Virus record (IMG/VR): IMGVR_UViG_3300046459_000213
Span: 1 to 34,036 of that record
Length of the DNA stretch: 34,036 bases
Source: a virus
Strand: one strand, 5' to 3'
The position numbers and the translations under genes were made by a program. How positions within the stretch are numbered: position 1 is the stretch's first letter; the number at the start of each line of letters is the position of its first letter. This document shows, piece by piece, positions 13,271 through 33,520 of the stretch. A model generated the notes under the pieces. That model saw nothing but the letters and a program-made list of their open reading frames with translations. It made no database searches and was not told where the DNA came from.

Positions 13271-14074
13271 ATGCATTCTGTATTGGCGCAGAACGTTCTC
13301 AAGGCCAAGCATCTGTTCAACGACAATTCTACAACGATCCTCGCCGCGATGGGAGTTACGGGAACTGTCACTACTGCTGTTCTAACCGGCCGTGCGTCGT
13401 TCAAAGCGGCTGAGATCATCGCTCGAGAAGAGACGTTGCTCAACGCGGCCGAGCCCATGGATACCAACGGGCCGTCCAATCTCGTCCTGACGAAGTCCGC
13501 CAAGTTCAAGAGAGTCTGGCCGCTCTATATTCCGCCAGTGGTCTCTGGTGGTCTCACCATCACGAGCATCATCGTGGGGAACCGAATCTCGTCGCATAAG
13601 ATCGCGGCGTTGGCAGTTTCTTCAGCAATCTCCGAAAGGGCGCTCCAGGAGTACAAGGACAAGGTCGTCGAGAAGCTGACCGAGAGGCAAAGCACGGCAC
13701 TTCGTGAGGACATCGCTCAGGACCGGGTGACGAACAATCCACCTCAGCCGGGGCAGGTCATCATCACGGGTAAGGGCGACGTTCTCTGCATGGATTCTCT
13801 CACGGGTCGATATTTCATGGCTTCCGTAGAGCAGATCCGTGGTGCAGAGAATAGGATTAATCGAGAACTCGTGACCTTCATGAGTTGCAGCCTGAGCGAG
13901 TTCTACAACGAACTGGGTCTTCCTCCGACATCATACACGGATACGGTTGGTTGGAATGCGAATGCTCTGGTAGAGGTGAAACTCTCCACGGCAATGACTC
14001 CAGACAACCGGCCGTGTGTCGTGATCGACTTCTCAACGATGCCGTTCTCGAACTACGATCGATTGTCGGATTGA
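13271..14074 (+). CDS. DUF6353-like membrane protein, copy A
   Basis: 267 residues, ATG 13271 after GAAAGG. Two hydrophobic segments (ILAAMGVTGTVTTAVL, about residues 23-38, and a PPVVSGGLTITSIIVGNR segment, about 92-109) are separated by a charged helix and followed by a helical region ending in EYKDKVVEKL. A C-terminal domain then carries DSLTGRYFMASVEQI, CSLSEFYNELGL and VVIDF. The gene at 15996 shares this layout and clear local similarity (TGRASFKAAEII against ACRATLKMDALL; QEYKDKVVEKL against RDYRMRVVEKF; FYNELGL against VYDMLGL), so the two are paralogues. I associate the family with DUF6353 of phages; no function is established to my knowledge. Confidence 0.75.
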   Translation: MHSVLAQNVLKAKHLFNDNSTTILAAMGVTGTVTTAVLTGRASFKAAEIIAREETLLNAAEPMDTNGPSNLVLTKSAKFKRVWPLYIPPVVSGGLTITSIIVGNRISSHKIAALAVSSAISERALQEYKDKVVEKLTERQSTALREDIAQDRVTNNPPQPGQVIITGKGDVLCMDSLTGRYFMASVEQIRGAENRINRELVTFMSCSLSEFYNELGLPPTSYTDTVGWNANALVEVKLSTAMTPDNRPCVVIDFSTMPFSNYDRLSD

Positions 14075-15995: not shown

Positions 15996-16880
15996 ATGTT
16001 TCCCATCCCGGCGATGATCACGCAGGTGGTCTCGCGAAGTAGCCTACTGACGAAGAAGAGCTCTCCTGAAGTTCTTCTAGCAGCGGGTGTTGTCGGTTCG
16101 GTCGCGAGTACTGTACTTGCGTGTCGAGCCACACTGAAGATGGATGCTCTCCTGGTAGAGACAAAGGAGAAGCTCGAGACGGCAAGGACGTTGGAGCATC
16201 CCGACTATAGCGAGCACGATCGTCAACGGGATATTCGACTTATCTATACGCAAACGACCGTCAAGACAGTTCAGCTCTATGGGCCGGCGATCGTTGTTGG
16301 TGCACTATCGGTCGCAGCATTGGTCGGTTCCAATCGTATCTTGACGGGTCGCAACACGGCTTTGGTTGCGGCATACACTGCTCTGGATCGTGGTTTCCGC
16401 GATTATCGGATGCGTGTAGTCGAGAAGTTCGGCGAAGAGGAAGATCGACGTCTTCGATACGGAACAAGGGAAGTCGAGATCGTCAATCCAGAAACGGGTC
16501 GAAAGAAACACGTCGAACGCGTAGCACTGACAGGACCATCGGTGTACGCTCGATTCTTCGATCCGGTGTCAAGTTCATGGAATCCAGAGCCAGAGTACAA
16601 CCTGATCTTTCTCCAGTGTCAACAGAACTGGGCGAACGATCAGCTTCGAACAAGAGGTCACGTGTTTTTGAACGAGGTCTACGACATGCTCGGACTCGAG
16701 CGGTCCAAAGCTGGTGCCGTTGTTGGGTGGGTCTTTACCAAAGACGGTTCGACAGACAACTTCATCGACTTCGGCGTATTCAACGGTGAGACGCAGATTT
16801 CCCGAGATTTCGTGAACGGTCACGAAGGGGCGATCTTGCTGGACTTCAACGTCGACGGCGTAATCTACGACAAAATCTAG
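15996..16880 (+). CDS. DUF6353-like membrane protein, copy B
   Basis: 294 residues, ATG 15996 with TAGGAG upstream. Hydrophobic segment 1 (VLLAAGVVGSVASTVLA, about residues 29-45), a charged region, then QTTVKTVQLYGPAIVVGALS with VAALVGSNRIL (about 87-118), a helix ending RDYRMRVVEKFGEEED, and a C-terminal domain (SVYARFFDPVSSSWN, RTRGHVFLNEVYDMLGL, VVGWVF, GAILLDFNVDG). This is the more typical DUF6353 form, with the copy at 13271 as its diverged paralogue. The two membrane segments and large cytoplasmic domain suggest a membrane-bound scaffold, but this is inference. Confidence 0.8.
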   Translation: MFPIPAMITQVVSRSSLLTKKSSPEVLLAAGVVGSVASTVLACRATLKMDALLVETKEKLETARTLEHPDYSEHDRQRDIRLIYTQTTVKTVQLYGPAIVVGALSVAALVGSNRILTGRNTALVAAYTALDRGFRDYRMRVVEKFGEEEDRRLRYGTREVEIVNPETGRKKHVERVALTGPSVYARFFDPVSSSWNPEPEYNLIFLQCQQNWANDQLRTRGHVFLNEVYDMLGLERSKAGAVVGWVFTKDGSTDNFIDFGVFNGETQISRDFVNGHEGAILLDFNVDGVIYDKI

Positions 16881-16887
16881 GAGAGAC

Positions 16888-17703
16888 ATGGCAACTGCAG
16901 CAGTCGCAGAGGAAGTCGCCCAGAATCTCGAAGAGGTGGCAACGGTCGCCAGGAAGATCAATCCGAATACGTTCGGAATCTTCGCTTCGGGAGTCCTGTT
17001 TGGCGCAACGATCGGGTTCTACTTCGGTCACAAGTTCATGAAAGAGAAGATGAGGGCAGAGGCGTTTGCCGAGAGCGAAGAGCAAGTCGCCAAGATTCGG
17101 GAAGCGTACATGGCTCGAGAGAAGCCGGCAACCGCAGAGCAGATCGTCAGAGAGAAAGGCTATATCTCTGGTGATGTAGAGACGAAAGTCGTTCCTGCTC
17201 AGATGGCTCGTGAGATGCAGGCGGAAGGGAAGACGATCGAAGAGATCGCCGAGGCTCTTGGGACTTCCGAGAACACCGTCAAGCTGCTTCTTCGTCCTCT
17301 TATGGCACCGGTCCCTGTCAAGGAAGCAGTTCCCCCGCCGGCTCACACGCCTATCGAGTGGGATTATAGCGCCGAACTAGCGAGTCGCACACCAAACGCA
17401 CCGTACGTGATTCATCAGGACGAGTTTCACTCGAGTGCCGATGGGGTGAACAGAGACGACTATACCAGAATCGTCTATACCTACTACGCCGGCGATGACG
17501 TTCTCGTCGACATGGATAACCATCCCGTTCCGCACGGAGATCTGATCGTGGGACAGGACAATCTCAAGTTCGGACACGGCACAGATGACGAAGATGTCGT
17601 GTTCGTTCGAAACGAGGGACGAAAGCTCGAGATCGAGATCTGCAGAACGCAGGATCGATACGATGTAATGGTCCTTGGAATCGATCCCGATGAAGCCGAT
17701 TGA
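16888..17703 (+). CDS. Membrane protein with internal helix-turn-helix and conserved C-terminal domain
   Basis: 271 residues, ATG 16888 with GGAGAG upstream. A transmembrane segment lies at about residues 30-48 (FGIFASGVLFGATIGFYFGH). Residues about 105-136 form a helix-turn-helix-like unit (EEIAEALGTSENTVKLLL) preceded by a long helix. The C-terminal domain reads PYVIHQDEFHSSADG, then YTRIVYTYYAGDDVLVDM, LIVGQDNLKFGHG and DVVFVRNE. That domain is one I recognise from phages carrying DUF6353 genes. The helix-turn-helix insertion is not part of the usual version as I remember it. The gene overlaps the next one by 14 nt. Confidence 0.75.
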   Translation: MATAAVAEEVAQNLEEVATVARKINPNTFGIFASGVLFGATIGFYFGHKFMKEKMRAEAFAESEEQVAKIREAYMAREKPATAEQIVREKGYISGDVETKVVPAQMAREMQAEGKTIEEIAEALGTSENTVKLLLRPLMAPVPVKEAVPPPAHTPIEWDYSAELASRTPNAPYVIHQDEFHSSADGVNRDDYTRIVYTYYAGDDVLVDMDNHPVPHGDLIVGQDNLKFGHGTDDEDVVFVRNEGRKLEIEICRTQDRYDVMVLGIDPDEAD

Positions 17704-18196
17704 CTATCACTATTTCGCCTGGTTGACATCTCAGGTTAATACACGCCAAGGGCGAACGTACAACGAATTGTTCGATCGGTTGCACAGCATCGAATTTGTA
17801 TGGACGGTTCCCAACGATGACAATCGAATCGCAGACGGAATGGATCTGCGTCGAGAGTTTTCTGAAAGAACCGAGTTCTCTCCAAGTGTGGAGGCAGTGT
17901 CAATTCTCGAAGTGATCGTCGGTCTTAGTCGACGACTGGCATTCATGACAGACTGGGCTGCTGAGATTTGGGCATGGAAACTCATCAAAAATCTCAAACT
18001 GCACAACATGTACGATCCGTTGACTAGCAGAAAAGTCGATATCATCGATGAGAAGATCGAGGCCCTCATCTGGAGAACATACGAACCAGACGGTAGTGGC
18101 GGGTTCTTCCCTCTCAAGAACGCGAAGGAAGATCAAACCAAAGTCGAAATCTGGTATCAAATGAACACATACGTCATCGAGATACAACACCTTTAG
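17690..18196 (+). CDS. Conserved phage protein of unknown function
   Basis: 168 residues from ATG 17690 inside the end of the preceding gene. It has HYFAWLTSQV, then LFDRLHSIEFVWTVPNDDNR with IADGMDLRREF, then VSILEVIVGLSRRLAFM and a final FFPLKNAKEDQTKVEIWYQM segment. This combination (a WTVPNDDNR motif, a helical V-x-I-L-E-V-x-x-x-L-S-R-R-L core and ED-x-x-VEIWYQMN at the end) is a widely distributed phage protein of Gram-positive bacteria with no assigned function as far as I know. It directly precedes the replication polypeptide. Confidence 0.75.
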   Translation: MKPIDYHYFAWLTSQVNTRQGRTYNELFDRLHSIEFVWTVPNDDNRIADGMDLRREFSERTEFSPSVEAVSILEVIVGLSRRLAFMTDWAAEIWAWKLIKNLKLHNMYDPLTSRKVDIIDEKIEALIWRTYEPDGSGGFFPLKNAKEDQTKVEIWYQMNTYVIEIQHL

Positions 18197-18206
18197 GAGG
18201 GATTTG

Positions 18207-21200
18207 ATGGACTTTTATCAGATCCTAACTAAAGAGACGAAAACTGGAGTCGATCTGTATCCAGATTTCGTTATCGGACGTTCACAGGATCTGATGGTGC
18301 AAGGCCGAACTTTCTACGCAATTTGGGACGAAGCTAAAGGTCTTTGGTCTCGTGACGAGTATGACGTTCAACGACTAGTCGATGAAGATCTGGAAGCCGA
18401 AGCAGAAAGAATACGTGCTAAGACAGGAATAATCTGTACGATTAAGTACATGCGCTCTTTCCAAAGCCAATCGTGGGCGCATTTCCGAAAGTTCCTAGCG
18501 CACGTAAGCGATAACAGTCGTCCTCTCGATTCAAAGCTCATATTCGCGAACTCAGAGGTTAAAAAAAGCGATTACGCGAGTAAGAGGTTGAGCTACGCGT
18601 TGGAAGAGGGTGATATTTCGGCTTGGGACGAACTCGTAGGAACGTTGTTTTCCGTCGAAGAAAGAACTAAGATCGAATGGGCTATCGGATCTATAGTGTC
18701 CGGAGACTCGAAGACCTTGCAGAAGTTCTTTGTGTTCTACGGACCTGCCGGATCTGGTAAGTCTACTGTCCTCAACATCATCCAGAAACTGTTCGAAGGA
18801 TACACAACCTCCTTCGACGGCAAAGCACTGGGTCGTTCTGATGGAACGTTCTCTACGGAGGCGTTCAAGAACAACCCTCTGGTAGCGATTCAGCATGACG
18901 CGGATCTGTCCAGAATCGACGACAATACTCGGCTGAACTCAATCGTCTCGCACGAGCTCATGACGATGAACGAGAAGTACAAGCCGAGTTACACAGCAAG
19001 ATCACAGGCTCTTCTGTTCTTGGGCTCGAATCAACCAGTGAAGATCACGGATGCCAAATCGGGAATAATTCGCAGACTCGTAGACATACATCCAACAGGC
19101 GTGAAGATTCCGGTTCGGCACTACCATACTCTTCTAACTCAGGTTGACTTCGAGCTCGGCGCAATCGCAACAAAGTGTCTCAAGGTATATTTGGAGATGG
19201 GTAGGAACGCCTACAACGGCTATCGCCCATTGGAGATGATGTTGCAAACCGACGTCTTCTTCAACTTCATCGAAGCGTACTACGACCTGTTCAAGAGTCA
19301 AGACTACACGACCTTGAAGCAGGCCTACGGGCTATACAAGGAGTTCTGCATAGAAAGTGGCGTTGACAAACCGCGACCGCAATACAAGGTAAGAGAAGAA
19401 CTCCGAAACTACTTCGATGAGTTTCTGGATAGAGGCGAAGTGGACGGCGAAAGAGTCCGAAGCTTGTATCGGGGATTCAACGCCGAGAAATTCAAGTCTC
19501 CGATCGATAAGGGTGAGGACCTTCCAGCATTCTCACTCGTAATGAACGAAACCGAATCGCCGCTGGACGCCCTATTTGCACAACAGCCAGCCCAATACGC
19601 TGGAAAAGATGGAACACCAGCTCGGGCATGGATTCACGTAAACACTACCCTTTCAGATATTGACACTAACAAACTTCACTACGTAAAAGTTCCAGAAAAA
19701 CATGTAGTGATCGACTTCGATCTGAAAGAGATGAATGGGGTGACTGCTCTTGAACGAAACCTCGAAGCAGCCAGTCGATGGCCTCCCACCTACGCAGAGA
19801 TCAGTAAATCGGGAGGAGGAGTACATCTCCATTATGTTTATGCCGGGGATACTAATGAATTGGCCTCAGTGTATTCCGATGGCATCGAAGTTAAAGTCTA
19901 TACAGGAGATGCCTCACTTCGTAGACGATTGTCCCTATGTAATGCGCTTCCAGTTCTGGGAATAAGCAGTGGGCTTCCGCTTAAACAGAAGAAGGAGAAG
20001 ATGCTCAAGGCAAAAACTGTGTCCAGCGAAAAGGGCCTTAGAGAGCTGATCGAGCGGAATCTCAGAAAGGAGATCCATCCAGGTACCAAACCATCCATCG
20101 ACTTCATTGCCCATATTCTCGAAGAGGCCCATGATGACGGGTTGAAGTACGATGTGTTGGATATGCGTCCTCGAATCGTGGCGTTCGCAGCCAATAGCAC
20201 GCATCAGGCGAAGACGTGCCTAGCCACTGTCCAGACGATGGAGTTTCAATCTGAGGCCGAAGTGGGTCCGGACGTCAGTGTCGAAGTGACCGATCAGCGT
20301 ATGGTTATATTTGACATTGAGGTTTACCCAAACTTGTTCGTCGTCTGTTGGAAGTTCAAAGACGACGACACAGTTGTTCGGATGATCAATCCTTCTCGTG
20401 AAGAGATCGAGAACTTGGTGAAGTTGAAATTGGTGGGGTTCTACAACCGTCGTTTCGACAACCATATTCTCTATGCCGCAATTTTGGGTTACTCGGTCGA
20501 ACAACTGTACACCCTGACGCGCAAGATCGTCATCGACAACAACAGGAACGCGTTCTTTGCTCAGGCGTACAACCTATCGTATGCCGATGTGTGGGATTTC
20601 AGCTCGATCAAACAAAGTTTGAAGAAGTTCGAGATCGATCTTGGAATTCTGCACATGGAGTTGGATCTTCCTTTGGACCAGCCTGTAAACGAGAAAGACT
20701 GGGCTAAAGTTGTAGAGTACTGTGTCAACGATGTTCGAGCAACGGAGGCGGTTCTCGAAGATCGTTGGGAAGATTTCGTCGCTCGTCAGATCCTGGCAGA
20801 GCTCAGTGGCCTGACGGTTAACGACACTACCCAAAGACACACCGCTCAAATCATCTTCGGCAAAGAAAAGAATCCTCAGCAATATTTCGTGTACACCAAT
20901 CTAAGCGAGGAGTTTCCCGGTTATGCGTTTGACGCTGGCAGAAGTACTTATCGTGGAGAAGACCCCGGTGAAGGTGGTTACGTTTACGCTGAACCCGGTA
21001 TCTACTCTTCCGTTGCTCTACTTGATATCGCGAGTATGCACCCGACGACGATTGAGATACTCAATCTATTTGGAAAATACACCACCAAATTCTCGGACCT
21101 AAAGAACGCTCGCATATCCATCAAGAGACGCGACTTCGCCACTGCCAGGACGATGCTCGATGGTCGACTGGCGCCCTACCTCGAAAATGAAGATGGAGCA

Positions 21201-21956
21201 GACAAGCTGGCGTACGCTCTGAAGATTGTGATCAACATTGTGTACGGGTTGACCTCAGCAAAGTTCGACAATCCGTTCCGAGATCGTAGAAACAAAGATA
21301 ACATCGTCGCCAAGCGTGGTGCTCTCTACATGATCGACCTGAAACACGAGATAGCGGCTAGAGGAGAACGGGTAATTCACATCAAAACCGACTCCGTAAA
21401 GCTACCTAATGCGAACCAAACAGATATTGACTTTGTAATCGACCACGGAAAGAGGTACGGATACGACTTCGAACACGAGGTGACGTATGACAAACTGTGT
21501 CTTGTTAATGATGCAGTGTATGTTGCTCGTAAAGATCGTACGTGGGTGGCCGTAGGCTCCCAGTTTCAACATCCGTTCGTATTCAAATCGTTGTTCACTG
21601 AGGAAGAACTTGTCTTTGACGACTACTGTGAAAGTCGCAGCGTCATCCAGGGAACAATGTACCTAGACAGAGAGGAAGACCATGCAGATCGCGAGGCTCT
21701 CGATCATCGCCGGATGCGTCACCTTGGTAGGACTGGTCGATTTGTTCCTGTCACACAAGGCGGAGGTACTCTATATCGGGTCAAGGATGACAAGTACTAC
21801 GCCGTAAGCGGGACCAAGGGCCACAAGTGGATCGACGCAGAGATCGCCAAGACGATGCCGGATCTTGAGATCGACATGTCCTACTTCACCAAACTGCAAC
21901 AAGAAGCTATCAAGACCATCGAGCAATTCGGCGACTTCCATGAATTCGTAAGTTAG
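18207..21956 (+). CDS. Single-chain SF3 helicase - AEP primase - family B DNA polymerase
   Basis: 1249 residues from ATG 18207 (AGGAGG at 18195-18200; a TTG 3 nt earlier is too close). Residues about 100-170 look like a D5_N domain. An SF3-type ATPase follows: Walker A GPAGSGKST at 179-187, a Walker B-like VAIQHDAD, sensor FLGSNQ and an arginine-finger-like GIIRRL. Next is an AEP primase-like domain: DFD at 503-505, SGGGVHLHY with His 540, and IEVKVY. Residues about 700-850 are a 3'-5' exonuclease: FDIE (D703, E705), FYNRRFDN (D751), YCVND (Y838, D842). The family B palm has motif A DIASMHP (D940), motif B K1006-x3-N1010-x2-Y1013-G and motif C IKTDS (D1062), where the first Asp of the usual DTDS is replaced by Lys. 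The chain could unwind, prime, extend and proofread. Confidence 0.9.
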   Translation: MDFYQILTKETKTGVDLYPDFVIGRSQDLMVQGRTFYAIWDEAKGLWSRDEYDVQRLVDEDLEAEAERIRAKTGIICTIKYMRSFQSQSWAHFRKFLAHVSDNSRPLDSKLIFANSEVKKSDYASKRLSYALEEGDISAWDELVGTLFSVEERTKIEWAIGSIVSGDSKTLQKFFVFYGPAGSGKSTVLNIIQKLFEGYTTSFDGKALGRSDGTFSTEAFKNNPLVAIQHDADLSRIDDNTRLNSIVSHELMTMNEKYKPSYTARSQALLFLGSNQPVKITDAKSGIIRRLVDIHPTGVKIPVRHYHTLLTQVDFELGAIATKCLKVYLEMGRNAYNGYRPLEMMLQTDVFFNFIEAYYDLFKSQDYTTLKQAYGLYKEFCIESGVDKPRPQYKVREELRNYFDEFLDRGEVDGERVRSLYRGFNAEKFKSPIDKGEDLPAFSLVMNETESPLDALFAQQPAQYAGKDGTPARAWIHVNTTLSDIDTNKLHYVKVPEKHVVIDFDLKEMNGVTALERNLEAASRWPPTYAEISKSGGGVHLHYVYAGDTNELASVYSDGIEVKVYTGDASLRRRLSLCNALPVLGISSGLPLKQKKEKMLKAKTVSSEKGLRELIERNLRKEIHPGTKPSIDFIAHILEEAHDDGLKYDVLDMRPRIVAFAANSTHQAKTCLATVQTMEFQSEAEVGPDVSVEVTDQRMVIFDIEVYPNLFVVCWKFKDDDTVVRMINPSREEIENLVKLKLVGFYNRRFDNHILYAAILGYSVEQLYTLTRKIVIDNNRNAFFAQAYNLSYADVWDFSSIKQSLKKFEIDLGILHMELDLPLDQPVNEKDWAKVVEYCVNDVRATEAVLEDRWEDFVARQILAELSGLTVNDTTQRHTAQIIFGKEKNPQQYFVYTNLSEEFPGYAFDAGRSTYRGEDPGEGGYVYAEPGIYSSVALLDIASMHPTTIEILNLFGKYTTKFSDLKNARISIKRRDFATARTMLDGRLAPYLENEDGADKLAYALKIVINIVYGLTSAKFDNPFRDRRNKDNIVAKRGALYMIDLKHEIAARGERVIHIKTDSVKLPNANQTDIDFVIDHGKRYGYDFEHEVTYDKLCLVNDAVYVARKDRTWVAVGSQFQHPFVFKSLFTEEELVFDDYCESRSVIQGTMYLDREEDHADREALDHRRMRHLGRTGRFVPVTQGGGTLYRVKDDKYYAVSGTKGHKWIDAEIAKTMPDLEIDMSYFTKLQQEAIKTIEQFGDFHEFVS

Positions 21957-21964
21957 GAGAAAAG

Positions 21965-22432
21965 ATGCCACCAAATGACGGAACCGTGTTGATGGAAGGC
22001 GTTCGCATCATCTTCCGCAACTTCGCCGGCAAGGAAGGTCAGTACAACAGAGAGGGAGATCGCAACTTCGCGGTGCTCTTGGATCCGGAGACGGCTGCGG
22101 CCATGGATACCGACGGCTGGAACGTCAAGATACTCAAGCAGCGCGAGGGTGAGGAAGAGGAAGCTCCGCAGGCATATCTTCCCATCTCTGTCAACTTCAA
22201 GGGGCGTCCTCCTCGTGTAGTGATGATCACCTCTCGAGGGCGCACACATCTCGACGAGAGCAGTGTGGAGACACTCGATTGGGTCGATATTCTCAACGTC
22301 GATCTGATCGTGCGTCCCTACGAGTGGAATGTCAACGGTCGTGGCGGAATCAAAGCTTACCTCCAAAGCCTCTACGTCACGATCGAAGAGGATCCGCTGG
22401 AGATCAAGTACTCCGAGCTCGAACAGCAGTGA
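21965..22432 (+). CDS. Probable phage single-stranded DNA-binding protein
   Basis: 155 residues, ATG 21965 with GGAGAAA just upstream, 8 nt after the replication polypeptide. It has MEGVRIIFRNFAGKEGQY, NREGDRNFAVLLDPE, GWNVKILKQRE, ISVNFKGRPPRVVMIT, then VDILNVDLIVRPYEWNVNGR and IKAYLQSLYVTIEED. Alternating strands with basic and aromatic residues and an acidic C-terminal tail (EEDPLEIKYSELEQQ) fit an OB-fold ssDNA-binding protein. The acidic tail is typical for docking replication partners. The family is familiar to me as the protein encoded next to the replicative polymerase in related phages. The function follows mainly from context and fold pattern. Confidence 0.7.
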   Translation: MPPNDGTVLMEGVRIIFRNFAGKEGQYNREGDRNFAVLLDPETAAAMDTDGWNVKILKQREGEEEEAPQAYLPISVNFKGRPPRVVMITSRGRTHLDESSVETLDWVDILNVDLIVRPYEWNVNGRGGIKAYLQSLYVTIEEDPLEIKYSELEQQ

Positions 22433-23939: not shown

Positions 23940-25121
23940 ATGGTAGAACTCAGACCTCATCAACAGATCGCTCTTAGAGATCTCTGCAACGGAAGCATCC
24001 TCTGGGGTCGTGTAGGGTCAGGTAAGTCAAGAGTGGCTGTTGCCTATTACGAGCAACAACATACTGATCGAGATGTGTACGTCATCACAACTGCCAAAAA
24101 GCGTGACAGTGTCGACTGGGAGGGCGAATTCGCCAAGATCGTCGTAGGAAAGGAGCAGAACGCGACTTTACATGGTGTTCTAACCGTCGATAGCTGGAAC
24201 AACATCGCGAAATATACACAGGTGGAGGGAGCATTTTTCATTTTTGACGAGCAAAGGCTTGTTGGAAAGGGAAAATGGGTCAAGTCTTTCCTCAAGATCG
24301 CCAAAAACAACTATTGGATCATGCTCAGCGCTACTCCTGGCGATACGTGGATGGACTATATTCCCGTGTTCGTCGCTAATGGCTTCTACAAGAACCGCTC
24401 GGAGTTCATCAGAGAGCATGTGGTCTATGCTCCTTATTCCAAATTCCCACGAGTGCAGAGGTATCTAGGTGAAAGCCGACTACAGAAGAACAGAAACCGA
24501 ATCCTGGTCCATATGCGGTACGCTAACGAGACGGTTCGCCACTCACAGACGATATTCGTGGATCATAACGAAGATTTGGTTCAGAGCGTTCTCAAGAACC
24601 GTTGGCATATCTATCAGAACCGCCCTATTCGTGACATCTCTGAGCTATTCGGTGTCATGCGTCGCGTGGTCAACTCTGATCCGTCCAGGGTTAAGAAGAT
24701 TGCTGAGCTTCTAGAGCGTCATTCGAAGATGATCGTGTTCTACAATTTCAACTATGAACTCGACATTCTTCGGAGGTTGAACGAGAGTGTCGAGACGGCC
24801 GAATGGAATGGTTGGAAACACCAAGATCTGCCCAAATCTGAAAATTGGCTGTATTTAGTGCAGTATGCTAGTGGTGCAGAAGGGTGGAATTGTGTCGAGA
24901 CGGACACTATGCTTTTCTACTCTTTTACGTACTCTTACAAGCTCTGGGAACAGGCTCACGGCAGAATTGACCGAATGAACACGCCCTTCACAGATTTGAA
25001 TTACTACACGCTAAAATCCAAAAGTGGCGTGGATAGGGCGATTTGGCGGTCTCTGAGCGCAAAACACAACTTTCAGGCCAGAAACTTCGACCCCGAAACT
25101 TATGCCCAAAAAAGTTTCTAA
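23940..25121 (+). CDS. SF2 DNA helicase
   Basis: 393 residues from ATG 23940. It starts with [20 protein letters not shown] and a Walker A motif GRVGSGKS (residues 23-30). Motif II is FIFDEQR (D103, E104; a DEQR variant of DEAH), motif III is LSATPGD (near 130), and motif VI is QAHGRIDR (R342, R345). The second RecA domain is short and contains [14 protein letters not shown]. The family is a compact SF2 helicase I know from phages of Gram-positive bacteria, where it is linked to replication or recombination. It follows the replication region and is single-transcript in appearance, with an intergenic G-run hairpin ahead of it. Confidence 0.85.
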
Positions 25122-25315: not shown

Positions 25316-25810
25316 ATGGAAGAATGGCGTTCGATAGAGGAGTTTCCTGGTTACAGCGTCAGTACTCATGGTAGACTGCGTTCGGACAAGTGGGGAAAGC
25401 TCTTAGCGTTATCGGACACGCAGTACGGTCTCGTTCAAGTTGGGCTCATGCGAGATGGAGTTCAATATCACAGATCGGTTCCGCTTCTGGTTGCTCGAGC
25501 TTTCCTTCCACCGATCACGGAAGCATTCGATACACCGATCAATCTCGATGGTGATCGTCACAATAATCGCATCGAAAATTTAGCTTGGCGTCCTAGGTGG
25601 TTTGCCGTAAAGTACAACCAGCAATTCAAACATCCTGGGGTCTATCACATCGACGCGCCAATTGTCGATCTTCGGTCGGGAGAAGTTAGCGTTGATTCGT
25701 ATCAGTGTGCTTGCCGGTATGGTCTGCTCGAGGAAGATCTTGTTCTCTCGATTCAAACTCGTACTTATGTTTGGCCCACTTATCAAGAATTCGGCATCAT
25801 CGACGATTAG
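25316..25810 (+). CDS. NUMOD4/HNH-like protein with degenerate HNH motif
   Basis: 164 residues from ATG 25316. The N-terminus (EEWRSIEEFPGYSVSTHGRL with RSDKWGKLL) is a NUMOD4 module, normally found on homing endonucleases. Next comes YHRSVPLLVARAFLPP, then INLDGDRHNNRIENLAWRPR, the position of an HNH_3-type nuclease core. In HNH_3 enzymes the sequence is usually N-H-x-D-G; here it is N76-L77-D78-G79, so the metal-facing His seems to be absent while the two Asn of D-x-x-NN-x-x-EN are kept. It may be an inactive or modified nuclease, or a DNA-binding regulator derived from one. The upstream spacer is A/T-rich, consistent with insertion. Confidence 0.75.
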   Translation: MEEWRSIEEFPGYSVSTHGRLRSDKWGKLLALSDTQYGLVQVGLMRDGVQYHRSVPLLVARAFLPPITEAFDTPINLDGDRHNNRIENLAWRPRWFAVKYNQQFKHPGVYHIDAPIVDLRSGEVSVDSYQCACRYGLLEEDLVLSIQTRTYVWPTYQEFGIIDD

Positions 25811-27360: not shown

Positions 27361-28833
27361 ATGCCCACTCTAGGCGCAGCACTCGACTTCGCAAAATATG
27401 AGGGACGCAATCTGCGTGGGCATCAGCTCGGCACGGCTCCCTCAAGCCCAGTCACTGGTCAGTTGTACTACAACACCGGCGACAACACCCTCTACTGGTA
27501 CGACGGATCAGCATGGGTATCTGCTCGTGGTGGTGCGTCTGCTACTCCTCCCGCAACAACAGGTGCTCTAGGAACTATTCAGTTGGCTGGAGATCTGGCG
27601 GGTACCGCAACTAGTCCTCAGATTGCAACCGGAGTCATCGTTGATACGGATGTGGCTGCAGCAAACAAGGATGGTGTAGCAGGCACGCCGTCCTTGCGCA
27701 CTCTTGGTACTGGAGCACAGCAAGCTGCAGCAGGTAACGATGCTCGCTTGTCGGACGTCCGGACACCCGCGGCGCATCACGCAACTCACGAGCCTGGTGG
27801 CTCAGATCCAATGGCTGTGGACGCAGCCGCAGGTACGGGATCGCTGAGGACTCTCGGTTTGACCGGAAGCAAAGCTATGCCGGGAACGACAACGCTTGAC
27901 GCGATTGCTGTACCAGTTGCCGATGTTAACTTGAACACTCACAAGATTACGAATCTGGCCGATCCCACAGCTTATAATGATGCCGCGACTAAGAATTATG
28001 TGGATAGTTTCACTCAGGGATTGGACGCAAAGCAGTCGTGCAAAGTAGCAACAATCGCAAATATCACACTCGCGGGAGGCGCGCCAAACACGCTCGACGG
28101 AATCTCGCTCGGAGTTACTGATCGTATTTTGGTTAAAGATCAGACGACCCAATCTCAGAATGGTATCTACACCGTGCAAACGCTTGGTACTGGTGCTAAT
28201 GGTACTTGGGTTCGAGCGGTTGATCTTGATGCTCCGGCTGAATTTCCATCAGCATATACATGGGTTGAGCAAGGAACGGTTAACGCTGATACCGGTTGGG
28301 TTTGCACTAACGACGTTGGTCTGATAATTGGCACGACAAATATCACTTTCGTTCAATTTTCTGGAGCAGGACAGATTATTGGTGGTGCAGGCCTTCTCAA
28401 GACGGGTAACACACTCGACGTTGGTGCCGGCGCTGGAATTACTGTCAATGCCGATACGATCCAAGTGGCAAATAACGGAATCACGAATGCGATGATCGCC
28501 GACGGAGCGATCGATGTCAGTACCGCAGATGTCACCGGAACACTGCCTGTCGCAAAGGGCGGTACCGGTGGAACGACGAATCCTACTGCTCGGGCAAGTC
28601 TCGCTGCCGCAGGCTACTATAGCTCGGCCACGCATGGTGCCGGAGCGACAATCTCGATTCCTCAAGCAACTCATGGTCTTCGTGCTACTCGGGGTCTTCT
28701 CGTTCAAGTTCAAGACGAGGCCAGTGGAGCGGTTGAGATTCCGGATATTTCAGTTGCTGCTACTGGGGACGTGACAGTTACCTACGGCGCATCAGTAGCC
28801 GCAAACTCGAAGAGGGTTACGGTGATCGGATAA
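27361..28833 (+). CDS. Modular tail fibre protein
   Basis: 490 residues from ATG 27361. After a short start (PTLGAALDFAKYEGRN) there is a module SSPVTGQLYYNTGDNTLYWY with DGSAWVSARGG that is repeated in the next gene. Later come HHATHEPGGSDPM, NTHKITNLADPTAYNDAATK (as in fibre proteins with KITNVAD-type hinge motifs), the VAKGGTGGTTNPTAR motif, and a C-terminal beta domain. The order fits a phage tail fibre that reaches to the host surface. Starts without a distinct ribosome binding site, 1 nt after the previous stop. Confidence 0.75.
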   Translation: MPTLGAALDFAKYEGRNLRGHQLGTAPSSPVTGQLYYNTGDNTLYWYDGSAWVSARGGASATPPATTGALGTIQLAGDLAGTATSPQIATGVIVDTDVAAANKDGVAGTPSLRTLGTGAQQAAAGNDARLSDVRTPAAHHATHEPGGSDPMAVDAAAGTGSLRTLGLTGSKAMPGTTTLDAIAVPVADVNLNTHKITNLADPTAYNDAATKNYVDSFTQGLDAKQSCKVATIANITLAGGAPNTLDGISLGVTDRILVKDQTTQSQNGIYTVQTLGTGANGTWVRAVDLDAPAEFPSAYTWVEQGTVNADTGWVCTNDVGLIIGTTNITFVQFSGAGQIIGGAGLLKTGNTLDVGAGAGITVNADTIQVANNGITNAMIADGAIDVSTADVTGTLPVAKGGTGGTTNPTARASLAAAGYYSSATHGAGATISIPQATHGLRATRGLLVQVQDEASGAVEIPDISVAATGDVTVTYGASVAANSKRVTVIG

Positions 28834-30005
28834 TGCCAGAATTTGTTGGACGCCTCAGAACTCCGAGACTTTCGGGAGCTCCATCTTCTCCTGTTTCCGG
28901 TGAACTATATTTCGATACAGGAACGAACACGCTTTACTGGTGGAATGGAACTTCTTGGGTTTCCGCTTCTGGTGGAGGCGGAGGCGGCTCGAGTGCTGTT
29001 GATACCCAAGTATTCACAGGCAACGGAACATGGACGAAGCCGGCAGGCGCAAAGACTGTCGAAGTACACGTCTTCGGTCAAGGCGGAGGCGGAGGTGGCG
29101 GAGCCAATCAAGCAGTTGCGACACAGCATAAGGGTGGCGGTGGAGGTGGTTCTGGTGGTCATGTCGAGCAGACGTTTCTTGCAGATAGTCTTCCGGCCAC
29201 TGTTGCTGTTACAGTTGCCAACGCTGCCAACAAAGGAGCCGGAGCTGCTGCGAGCTCAAACGCAAACGGTGGATACGGTTCGCCAGGAGGCGCTTCATCA
29301 TTCGGAACACTTCTGTCTGCCCAAGGTGGCGGAGGTGGAGGACAGGGAGGTAACTCATCAACGCAGAATAGCGTGGCTGGCGGCGGAGCTGGGTTTAATG
29401 CTGCAGGAGTAACGCCAAGTGGTACCAACCCTACTGCTGGCGGTAACGGTGGCGCAGGTTGGTCTGATGGAGGTGGTGCTGGTTCTACTGGTGGTGCTGG
29501 AAACGACGGAGGTCCCGGTAAAGGTGCGCCGTATGGCAGCGGTGCTGGTGGCGGCGGTGGTGGACCGTCTAACGGTGGAATCAACATCAAAATGGGCGCA
29601 GGTGGCGGCGGTGGTACAGGTACCGCTTCCGCGTCGGGAAACGGCGGTAGTTCGATGGCGGGTGCTGGTGGTGGCGGAGGTGGAGCTTCTAGCCAAGCTG
29701 GCTCTGTTGGTGGTGCTGGTGGTAGTTCTTCGCTCACTCCCGGTGGCGGTGGCGCAGGCGGAGCAAGTGGAGCCGTTCCTGTAGTTGGTGCTGTTGGTGC
29801 TGCTTGGAACGCTGGCGCTGGTATCGGTGGTTCTGGTGGTGGCGGAGGCGGCGGAGCAACAGTCGCTGCTGTCGCAGGAGCTTCTGGTGGCGATGGTGGT
29901 CTCGGTGGAGGCGGAGGTGGAGGTGGTGGACCGGGAAACACCACAGGCAAAGGTGGAGATGGCGGAAATGGTGGTGGCGGTTTGGTGGTAGTTATCTCGT
30001 GGTAA
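28833..30005 (+). CDS. Glycine-rich tail adhesin
   Basis: 390 residues from ATG 28833, overlapping the upstream stop (TAATG). It opens with the same module as the preceding fibre (SSPVSGELYFDTGTNTLYWW with NGTSWVSASGG), then a beta domain (TQVFTGNGTWTKPAGAKTVE), after which more than 250 residues consist mainly of Gly tracts. This matches glycine-rich receptor-binding domains that form polyglycine-II. The repeated GGN/GGT codons make the gene prone to recombination and to length changes, and the antisense strand would give a Pro-rich open frame that is a shadow. Confidence 0.8.
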   Translation: MPEFVGRLRTPRLSGAPSSPVSGELYFDTGTNTLYWWNGTSWVSASGGGGGGSSAVDTQVFTGNGTWTKPAGAKTVEVHVFGQGGGGGGGANQAVATQHKGGGGGGSGGHVEQTFLADSLPATVAVTVANAANKGAGAAASSNANGGYGSPGGASSFGTLLSAQGGGGGGQGGNSSTQNSVAGGGAGFNAAGVTPSGTNPTAGGNGGAGWSDGGGAGSTGGAGNDGGPGKGAPYGSGAGGGGGGPSNGGINIKMGAGGGGGTGTASASGNGGSSMAGAGGGGGGASSQAGSVGGAGGSSSLTPGGGGAGGASGAVPVVGAVGAAWNAGAGIGGSGGGGGGGATVAAVAGASGGDGGLGGGGGGGGGPGNTTGKGGDGGNGGGGLVVVISW

Positions 30006-30319: not shown

Positions 30320-30821
30320 TCAGCACCATTGGATTCACTATACGCCAGATCGCCTTCTAGAACGTTGGACCGCAGCACAAGCCGCAGCGTACGGTACTGC
30401 CCAACACGAATACGCCCACCGCGAGATCAACGAAGGGCGCCTTTCGAGTCTTGTTGGAACTGTCGGTCTCTATATCAACGATGCCATCAGATACCGAATG
30501 CAAACCGAGCAAGTTCTCTACTACTCAGAAAACTGTTTCGGAACAGCGGACACGATCTGTTTTCGTTACAACACCCTTCGAATTCATGATCTGAAAACTG
30601 GAGTCTATGCTGGATCTGTCCATCAGCTTGAGGTTTATGCTGCGCTCTTCTGTCTAGAATACGACAAAGATCCTTTCGACATCAAGATGGAGCTGCGCAT
30701 TTACCAAGATAACGAGGTAGTTATATTTGATGTTGATCCAGAAGACATCATGTTCATTATGGAACGAATTCAAGAATTTGATAGACTCATATCCCATCGA
30801 CGAATGGAGGAGGAAACATGA
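30264..30821 (+). CDS. Cas4/RecB-like PD-(D/E)XK exonuclease
   Basis: 185 residues from GTG 30264, supported by GGAGG at 30253-30257. It has QGEHAFLSPSQHHWIHYTPD, AAYGTAQHEYAHREI (the H-x-x-x-H motif), FGTADTICF (D96) and IHDLKTG (D109, K111), then HQLEVYAALFCLEYD, the Q/Y motif of RecB/Cas4 nucleases. No four-Cys iron-sulphur cluster signature is present. It overlaps the preceding VRR-NUC gene by 56 nt in a different frame, which is more than the typical coupling overlap. It probably processes DNA ends. Confidence 0.8.
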   Translation: MRFNRHLKVQGEHAFLSPSQHHWIHYTPDRLLERWTAAQAAAYGTAQHEYAHREINEGRLSSLVGTVGLYINDAIRYRMQTEQVLYYSENCFGTADTICFRYNTLRIHDLKTGVYAGSVHQLEVYAALFCLEYDKDPFDIKMELRIYQDNEVVIFDVDPEDIMFIMERIQEFDRLISHRRMEEET

Positions 30822-33520
30822 TTCGCACCGAAGAAGAACATCTTGCGCATTATGGCATCCTTCGCCGTTCTGGGCGCTATCCGTGGGGTTCGGGTAAAGA
30901 TGAGAATACGCGCAACCGCGATTTCCTCGATATCATCGCTCAGCACAAAAGAGATGGTATGTCCGAGTCAGAGGTCGCAAAAGGCTACGGAATCACTACA
31001 ACTGAGTTGCGCGCAGCCAAGTCCATCGCAAGCGCTCAGCAGAAGCAGGAAAAGCGTCTGACCGCTCAGCGTTTGAAGGATAAGGGTTGGTCGAACGTCG
31101 AGATCGGTAAGCGGATGGGAATCAACGAATCCTCAGTTCGATCGTTGCTTACTATCGGAGCCAGGGATAAAGTCGACGCTCTTCATGCTACTGCCAATAT
31201 GCTTCGCGAACAAGTTACAAAAAAGGGCATGATCGATGTCGGTAAAGGTGTCGAGTATCAATTGGGGGTTACGAAAAGTCGTCTCGACACAGCTGTAGCT
31301 CTGCTCAAAGAAGAGGGCTATGCTGTTCACAACATCAAGATCATGCAGTTGGGCACGGGTAAGTTCACGACCATGAAGGTGCTTGCTCATCACGGAACTA
31401 CGTTGTCTGAAGTTCAGAAGAATCGTGCTCAGATTCAGCAGATCCAGAGTCGATCCAAAGATCATGGTCGAACGTACGAAACATTCCAATCACCAAAGTC
31501 GTTGAGTTCAAAAAGAGTTGGGATTGTATATGGACCAGAAGGTGGCTCCAAATCTGACGGTGTTATCTACGTTCGTCCTGGTGTGAAGGATCTTTCTCTT
31601 GGGCAGAACAACTATGCTCAAGTCCGGATCATGGTTGATGGGACGCACTACATCAAGGGTATGGCGGTCTACAGAGAAGACATGCCTCCCGGTCACGATG
31701 TCATCTTTCACACAAGTAAGAGCAATACGGGTAATAAGAAAGATGTAATGAAGGAGATCTCGAGCGATCCTGAGAATCCGTTTGGTGCGATCACCAGTCA
31801 AGTCACGAATTCAAAGGGCCGCGTTTCTTCAGTAATGAATAAGGTCAACGATGAAGGAACCTGGGACAAATGGTCGAAGAATCTTCCGTCTCAGTTCCTG
31901 TCAAAGCAAAGTCCTACTCTTGCAACACAGCAGCTCAAGACCACGTTCGATAGAAGGACTCGAGAGTATGATGAAATCAGCTCTTTGACAAATCCTTCGG
32001 TTAAGAAAGATCTCCTACTGAAGTTCGCAGACGCAACAGATTCGGCTGCTGTGCATCTCAAGGCGGCTAGTCTACCTCGACAAGCAACCAAAGTTCTTCT
32101 TCCTGTTCCTTCTATGAAAGCCAATGAGATCTATGCACCTAGCATGAGGAATGGCGAGACCGTTTCGCTAGTTCGTTTTCCTCATGGAGGAACGTTCGAG
32201 ATTCCTCAACTCAAAGTTAACAACCGAAATCGTGAAGCGCGAAAGATGTTGGGTACCGCAGCTCAAGATGCGGTTGGTATCCATCATAGTGTTGCTCAAC
32301 GTTTGTCGGGTGCAGATTTCGATGGCGATACTGTTCTTGTTATTCCCAACTCTCACAACAAGGTTAAGAGTAGCGATCCTCTGGATGGGCTGAAAGACTT
32401 CGATCCTCAGTCCTATAAGATCCCTCATGATTCATCCGTTCCTCGAATGACTCCATTTCAGAGGGGTCAGGAGATGGGAAAGATTTCTAACCTGATTACG
32501 GACATGACTATTCGTGGTCAGGGTGGCGGTGCTAGTAGCGATGAACTTGCTCGTGCCATTAGACATTCAATGGTTGTCATTGATGCTGAGAAGCATGGGC
32601 TTGATTATCGTCAGTCCGAGAAAGATCATGGCATCTTGCAGTTGAAGGAGAAGTACCAAGGTAGTAAGAAGGCTGGTGCTACAACTCTAATCAGTCAGGC
32701 CAAGGCACCTAGGGTTATCGAAGAACGTCAACCTCGATCTCCTCGTAGAGGTGGACCAATCGATCCGAAGACGGGTAAGAAAGTCTTCGAACCTACGGGT
32801 CGTACGGTTGCTGAGCGGAAGCTGGTTAGAGATCCAGCAACAGGTGAGAAGCACTATGTGGACACAGGTCGTAGGGTTCCTGCCACGATTCGTGTCCCCC
32901 GTCTAGGAGAAACGCACGATGCGTTTGCCCTTTCCTCTGGCACACAAATGGAAGCTATCTATGCGTCGCATTCGAATAGGTTGAAGAGCCTGGCCAATGA
33001 CGCCCGCAAGCAAGCGCTGGCTACTAAGGCTCATGATAGATCCCCGTCCGCGGCAAAGGCGTACTCAAATGAAGTGGCCTCCCTTAACGCCAAGCTCAAT
33101 CTCGCAAAGAAGAATGCTCCATACGAAAGACACGCCCAGCTCCTAGCAAATGCCCAGGTCTCAGTAAGACGCCAGGCTAATCCACATATGGAGAAAGCGG
33201 AAGTCAAGAAGCTTCGTAATCAAGAGTTGACTAAAGCTAGAGCAAGAACTGGAGCAGGCAAGGACCATATCGTAATAACCCAGGCAGAATGGGACGCCAT
33301 CCAGGCAGGTGCTATCAGTAAGTCTAAGTTGGATGAGATCCTTCGTCATAGCGATACTGATACTGTGAAGAAGCTCGCCCTCCCTAAAAGAAAGCACCTC
33401 ATGACTTCGTCCATGCAGTCTCGGGCTAAGTCTATGCTTGCCTCCGGCTATACACAACAAGAGGTCGCGGATGCTTTAGGCGTTGGCCTCACCACGCTCA
33501 AGGTAGGACTCAATGGCTGA
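30818..33520 (+). CDS. DFDGD protein, RNA polymerase-like double-psi beta-barrel, with HTH segments
   Basis: 900 residues; ATG 30818 overlaps the upstream TGA. Two helix-turn-helix-like units lie near the N-terminus (EVAKGYGITTTELRAAKS; VEIGKRMGINESSVRSLL). A beta-rich region at about 225-310 (VRIMVDGTHYIKGMAVYRED) follows. The key motif is LSGADFDGDTVLVIP with D500, D502 and D504, preceded by VRFPHGGTFEIPQL and HHSVAQR. This matches the D-F-D-G-D catalytic barrel of RNA polymerase beta-prime (NADFDGD), of QDE-1-like polymerases and of phage YonO-type and crAss-like phage RNA polymerases. Downstream helical segments include MGKISNLITDMT. A C-terminal HTH (YTQQEVADALGVGLTTLK) closes the chain. 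It could transcribe phage genes. Confidence 0.75.
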   Translation: MIRTEEEHLAHYGILRRSGRYPWGSGKDENTRNRDFLDIIAQHKRDGMSESEVAKGYGITTTELRAAKSIASAQQKQEKRLTAQRLKDKGWSNVEIGKRMGINESSVRSLLTIGARDKVDALHATANMLREQVTKKGMIDVGKGVEYQLGVTKSRLDTAVALLKEEGYAVHNIKIMQLGTGKFTTMKVLAHHGTTLSEVQKNRAQIQQIQSRSKDHGRTYETFQSPKSLSSKRVGIVYGPEGGSKSDGVIYVRPGVKDLSLGQNNYAQVRIMVDGTHYIKGMAVYREDMPPGHDVIFHTSKSNTGNKKDVMKEISSDPENPFGAITSQVTNSKGRVSSVMNKVNDEGTWDKWSKNLPSQFLSKQSPTLATQQLKTTFDRRTREYDEISSLTNPSVKKDLLLKFADATDSAAVHLKAASLPRQATKVLLPVPSMKANEIYAPSMRNGETVSLVRFPHGGTFEIPQLKVNNRNREARKMLGTAAQDAVGIHHSVAQRLSGADFDGDTVLVIPNSHNKVKSSDPLDGLKDFDPQSYKIPHDSSVPRMTPFQRGQEMGKISNLITDMTIRGQGGGASSDELARAIRHSMVVIDAEKHGLDYRQSEKDHGILQLKEKYQGSKKAGATTLISQAKAPRVIEERQPRSPRRGGPIDPKTGKKVFEPTGRTVAERKLVRDPATGEKHYVDTGRRVPATIRVPRLGETHDAFALSSGTQMEAIYASHSNRLKSLANDARKQALATKAHDRSPSAAKAYSNEVASLNAKLNLAKKNAPYERHAQLLANAQVSVRRQANPHMEKAEVKKLRNQELTKARARTGAGKDHIVITQAEWDAIQAGAISKSKLDEILRHSDTDTVKKLALPKRKHLMTSSMQSRAKSMLASGYTQQEVADALGVGLTTLKVGLNG

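Follow-up and report, generated by a model that had tools for sequence, protein, structure and literature searches.

The stretch of DNA analyzed here (the window, 34,036 bases) carries tail genes on its left and replication genes on its right. On the + strand at 18207-21956, a continuous frame with zero internal stops encodes a protein of 1249 residues, whose parts are the following:

18207-21956, + strand: fused replicase gene, 1249 aa; helicase, AEP primase, helical domain, exonuclease/family B polymerase (PolB)
18195-18200, + strand: ribosome-binding site AGGAGG, 6 nt 5' of the ATG, read from the sequence
18207-18596, + strand: N-terminal domain, residues 1-130 (approximate), belonging to the helicase part; beta/helix model with pLDDT of about 89-96
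18597-19226, + strand: SF3/D5-type helicase ATPase core, residues 131-340
19227-19556, + strand: C-terminal part of the helicase and linker, residues 341-450
19557-20006, + strand: putative AEP/PriS-like primase core, residues 451-600 (approximate), with D503, D505, H540 and E561
20007-20276, + strand: helical domain, counterpart of the aHD of GP55 (see below), residues 601-690 (approximate), with Y648 and F660
20277-20786, + strand: 3'-5' exonuclease domain, residues 691-860, with D703, E705, D751, Y838 and D842
20787-21953, + strand: family B polymerase palm, fingers and thumb, residues 861-1249

The distance between AGGAGG and the ATG favors this start over the TTG at 18204. The original prediction of a single open reading frame without frameshift clearly holds, since all 1249 codons are open. 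The protein matches the family PHROG 4210 (phrog_4210) over residues 1-1248 with E=0.

For residues 1-438, DUF5906 scores above its curated cut-off (E=2.6e-13), and several phage primase-helicase families are matched as well. The helicase core has a Walker A motif (GPAGSGKST, residues 179-187, with K185), a Walker B motif (D231/D233), a sensor asparagine (N275) and the arginines R289/R290, which, together with the fold, characterize it as an SF3/D5-type ATPase. When the predicted structure of residues 1-690 (mean pLDDT 85.8) is compared to the PDB using Foldseek, the best match is the SaPI5 primase-helicase (7ola, E=2.3e-12); the NrS-1 helicase (6k9c), AsfvPrimPol and monkeypox (MPXV) E5 are also matched. 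A profile search of solved structures returned no significant match for the N-terminal domain (residues 1-130). Further along, the match of residues 349-406 to Pox_D5 is weak (E=0.15), and the linker 430-442 is modeled with low confidence.

The middle part contains the motifs of an AEP: DxD (D503/D505), sxH (H540) and an acidic motif III (E561). Residues 439-692 match Prim-Pol (PF09250) with E=8.1e-4 and 20.3 bits, for a curated cut-off of 22.8, and also the primase families phrog_3022 and phrog_695. The AEP was predicted to span residues 480-690. Its presence is supported by the motifs, by these weak profile matches and by homology with GP55, but its probable limits had to be redrawn: the core is at about 451-600, and after it comes a distinct helical domain (about 601-690), with modeled helices at 608-619, 627-643, 651-662 and 668-676.

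For residues 693-1249, the families matched are phage DNA polymerases (phrog_1252, DNA polymerase, E=4e-42). The search of solved structures with the single sequence gave only marginal PolB matches, so that profile and fold searches were needed. A profile built from 46 relatives matches E. coli Pol II (E=3.5e-6), and the predicted structure of residues 440-1249 (mean pLDDT 87.9) is matched to PolB structures by Foldseek with E=7.8e-17, which clearly identifies the C-terminal part as a polymerase fold. The ExoI-III residues (D703, E705, D751, Y838, D842) and the polymerase motifs A (D940), B (K1006/N1010/Y1013) and C (K1060-T-D1062-S) are all present, as expected for family B. Every motif residue listed in the original prediction was thus found, and family searches, predicted structures and a tested homologue agree on the order SF3/D5 ATPase, AEP, and PolB with exonuclease in one chain.

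In an alignment of 159 full-length sequences, in which some contigs are represented twice, D503, D505, H540, D703, E705, D751, Y838, D842, D940, N1010, Y1013 and D1062 are invariant, and so are the Walker A K185, D231, N275, R289/R290 and E561; D233 is conserved as well. Position 1006 is a lysine in 152 of these sequences and an arginine in the other 7. A second viral scan with the alignment as the query returned mostly the same lineage, at 55% identity or more.

The helicase-AEP-PolB order had been thought not to be described. It is in fact that of GP55 from Lactococcus phage 1706, which Zhang et al. have purified and characterized (NAR 2025, gkaf542, June 2025; PMC12205980), and the record of ReqiPoco6 already mentions a primase-type N-terminal domain and a C-terminal PolB. 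GP55 has helicase, RNA primase, polymerase and 3'-5' exonuclease activities; alone, it replicates M13 ssDNA de novo and performs strand displacement (PMC12205980). It is a dimer, held together by its helicase part, and more than 1000 homologues have been reported (PMC12205980).

GP55, as encoded in the genome of phage 1706, and the window replicase share the order helicase, PriS-like, aHD, exonuclease/PolB over their full length (1317 and 1249 residues, respectively). In the multiple alignment they are 39% identical over the full length, with 53% identity in the AEP core and 44% in the exonuclease and polymerase. The seven mutated GP55 residues that were mapped are all identical in the window protein (GP55/window numbering: K189/K185, D509/D505, Y655/Y648, F667/F660, D712/D703, E714/E705, D949/D940). 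Two of them, Y655 and F667 in the aHD, are essential for priming by GP55 (PMC12205980). In both proteins, motif C reads KTDS instead of DTDS; since GP55 is active, a deviation of this kind from the textbook motif does not preclude activity.

The primase was also predicted to hand over its primers directly to the polymerase of the same chain. The primers made by GP55 are indeed extended by its own PolB, but its primase and polymerase also cooperate in trans, and T4 or Phi29 polymerase can use the primers too (PMC12205980). Hand-over within the chain is therefore possible, not obligatory. Similarly, the description of the protein as a nearly complete replisome fits the biochemistry of GP55, except that such phages encode their own SSB-like protein and SF2 helicase.

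GP55 prefers UTP/dTTP for unwinding, starts with GTP and primes strongly at CCAAC (PMC12205980). The window replicase may share these preferences for nucleotides and priming site, but at 39% identity they could also have diverged. Compared to synonymous-codon shuffles, CCAAC and its complement are not unusually frequent in the window genes (z of -0.56 and 2.05), and there is no clear excess in the sampled 1706 genes (z of 1.46 and 0.3). An apparent enrichment of GTTGG in the window (53 occurrences, versus about 30 in dinucleotide shuffles) was discarded, as it mostly disappears with synonymous-codon shuffles (z 2.05, rank 106 of 1024).

The genes around the replicase include the following:

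15996-16880, + strand: DUF6353 putative membrane protein, upstream (PF19880, E=8.3e-73), with two hydrophobic segments
17687-18196, + strand: phrog_4678 protein, directly upstream (phrog_4678, E=4.5e-48)
21965-22432, + strand: ssDNA-binding/annealing protein, homologue of 1706 gp66 (PF24083, E=1.3e-65; 39% identical to gp66)
23940-25121, + strand: SF2-type helicase, homologue of 1706 gp67 (phrog_62, E=2.9e-57; 39% identical to gp67)
30818-33520, + strand: RNA-polymerase-like protein of 900 residues, homologue of 1706 gp75 (PHROG 4291, "RNA-dependent RNA polymerase")

Phage 1706 gp66 (SSB), gp67 (helicase), gp68 (VRR-NUC-type endonuclease), gp69 (exonuclease) and gp75 (annotated as an RNA-dependent RNA polymerase) all have window homologues at 37-40% identity. 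A DUF6353 protein is also an upstream neighbor of the replicase in phage 1706 (gp51). The literature searched contained no mention of DUF6353. A second DUF6353 protein with predicted hydrophobic segments, apparently a paralogue of the first, is encoded at 13271-14074 (+ strand). The RNA-polymerase-like protein has HTH motifs and, with DFDGD at residue 500, an ADFDGD motif reminiscent of the catalytic loop found in YonO and in the multi-subunit RNA polymerases; this protein and the replicase are carried by nearly the same phages. No other DNA polymerase or primase was recognized among the window genes searched, and the window is possibly a fragment. A NUMOD4/HNH-type homing endonuclease-like gene (25316-25810, + strand) adjoins the SF2 helicase, and a glycine-rich tail-fiber-like protein is encoded at 28833-30005 (+ strand), in a region of high local G+C (0.61) with a GC skew of 0.30.

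A tblastn search found 252 deposited phage records with a single locus spanning 80% or more of the replicase. They are mostly phages of Actinobacteria, mainly of Arthrobacter, Gordonia and Streptomyces, labeled "DNA primase/polymerase"; other hosts are Rhodococcus, Curtobacterium, Microbacterium, Bifidobacterium and Lactococcus. The deposited phage collection has no near-identical phage for bases 1-25000 of the window. The actinobacteriophage proteins of PHROG 4210 (ReqiPoco6 gp072 and proteins of Gordonia, Arthrobacter and Streptomyces phages) are full-length homologues, about 50-62% identical, which differ from the window replicase by sequence divergence only; most of their annotations omit the helicase. 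The ReqiPoco6, Streptomyces, Curtobacterium and Bifidobacterium relatives retain the upstream DUF6353 and phrog_4678 genes, as in the window.

More distant proteins have only part of this architecture. NrS-1 PrimPol and the SaPI5/AsfvPrimPol primase-helicases likewise combine an AEP and an SF3-type helicase in one chain, and match the helicase fold; in these proteins, however, the primase precedes the helicase and a PolB domain is absent. The stand-alone PolB of Enterococcus phages is about 24% identical over residues 672-1080 (PolB/exonuclease), a match that excludes the helicase and primase regions. A paper on novel AEP families mentions neither PolB nor 1706. Among the relatives, Bifidobacterium phage BitterVaud1 (L004:3001-7631) has a replicase split just before motif A into ORFs of 959 and 368 aa, separated by a 213-aa ORF without replicase match; this is a natural two-chain version. 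Streptomyces phage Thiqqums encodes, upstream of its full-length replicase, a 165-aa paralogue limited to the helicase core (gp55, L003:2977-3474), in which the Walker A motif is kept despite an apparent internal deletion.

The window gene thus very probably encodes the principal replicase of a tailed phage, namely a four-in-one enzyme of the GP55 family, with a probability of about 93%; the activities are assigned by homology. Within the window, this reading is supported by the domains, the catalytic residues, the homology with GP55 and the shared flanking replication genes. The activities were established for GP55, and the window protein is expected to have the same ones. By analogy, the N-terminal SF3 helicase would unwind DNA and drive strand displacement, the AEP core and the helical domain would make short RNA primers, and the C-terminal PolB would extend these primers while the exonuclease would proofread.

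That the fusion results from an assembly or annotation artifact merging separate genes could be feared, because the window comes from the record of an uncultured virus and may be incomplete. The full-length fusion recurs in the 252 deposited records and in dozens of independent contigs from metagenomes, so that it is neither a chance frame nor an assembly chimaera; GP55 itself was purified. This explanation is refuted for all practical purposes. It is also very improbable, if slightly less so, that the helicase or primase modules have decayed, with only the PolB still working and the phage relying on a primase and a helicase from the host or from elsewhere in its own genome. The weak score of the primase domain against curated models and the separate SF2 helicase gene (23940-25121) would fit such a decay. 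Decaying domains would, however, lose their catalytic residues, whereas K185, D231, N275, R289/R290, D503/D505, H540 and E561 are invariant, and the homologue GP55 is active in every part (PMC12205980).

A third possibility, unlikely but to be taken more seriously, is that the replicase is the catalytic center of a membrane-tethered complex with the DUF6353, phrog_4678 and RNA-polymerase-like proteins, and is not self-sufficient in the cell. The neighbors are indeed constant: among the 70 relatives with enough flanking sequence, all have the DUF6353 gene upstream, 68 have the phrog_4678 gene (median gap of about 27 nt) and 68 have the SSB-like gene. In deposited phages, the replicase, DUF6353, phrog_4678 and the RNA-polymerase-like protein are each found in 95 Arthrobacter, 55 Gordonia and 54 Streptomyces phages, near-identical numbers that were compared as host-genus counts, not accession by accession. 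On the other hand, GP55 alone replicates M13 ssDNA, and the constancy of a core gene block is co-inheritance, which is no proof of shared function or of physical contact.

The helicase-AEP-PolB design is already known, and the window gene adds one sequence to a characterized family. Its value is comparative: residues that are essential in GP55, including Y655 and F667 of the helical domain, are retained in a distant lineage. The analysis also indicates that this replicase family travels with constant neighbors, among them a membrane protein and an RNA-polymerase-like protein; the GP55 paper treats neither of these two as a partner in replication (PMC12205980). Tentatively, the GP55-type replicase might belong to an obligatory phage module with DUF6353, phrog_4678 and the single-chain DFDGD RNA-polymerase-like protein, although the odds are against it. 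If so, replication would be tethered to the membrane and coupled to the phage's own transcription, and in the cell the replicase would not act as an independent enzyme.
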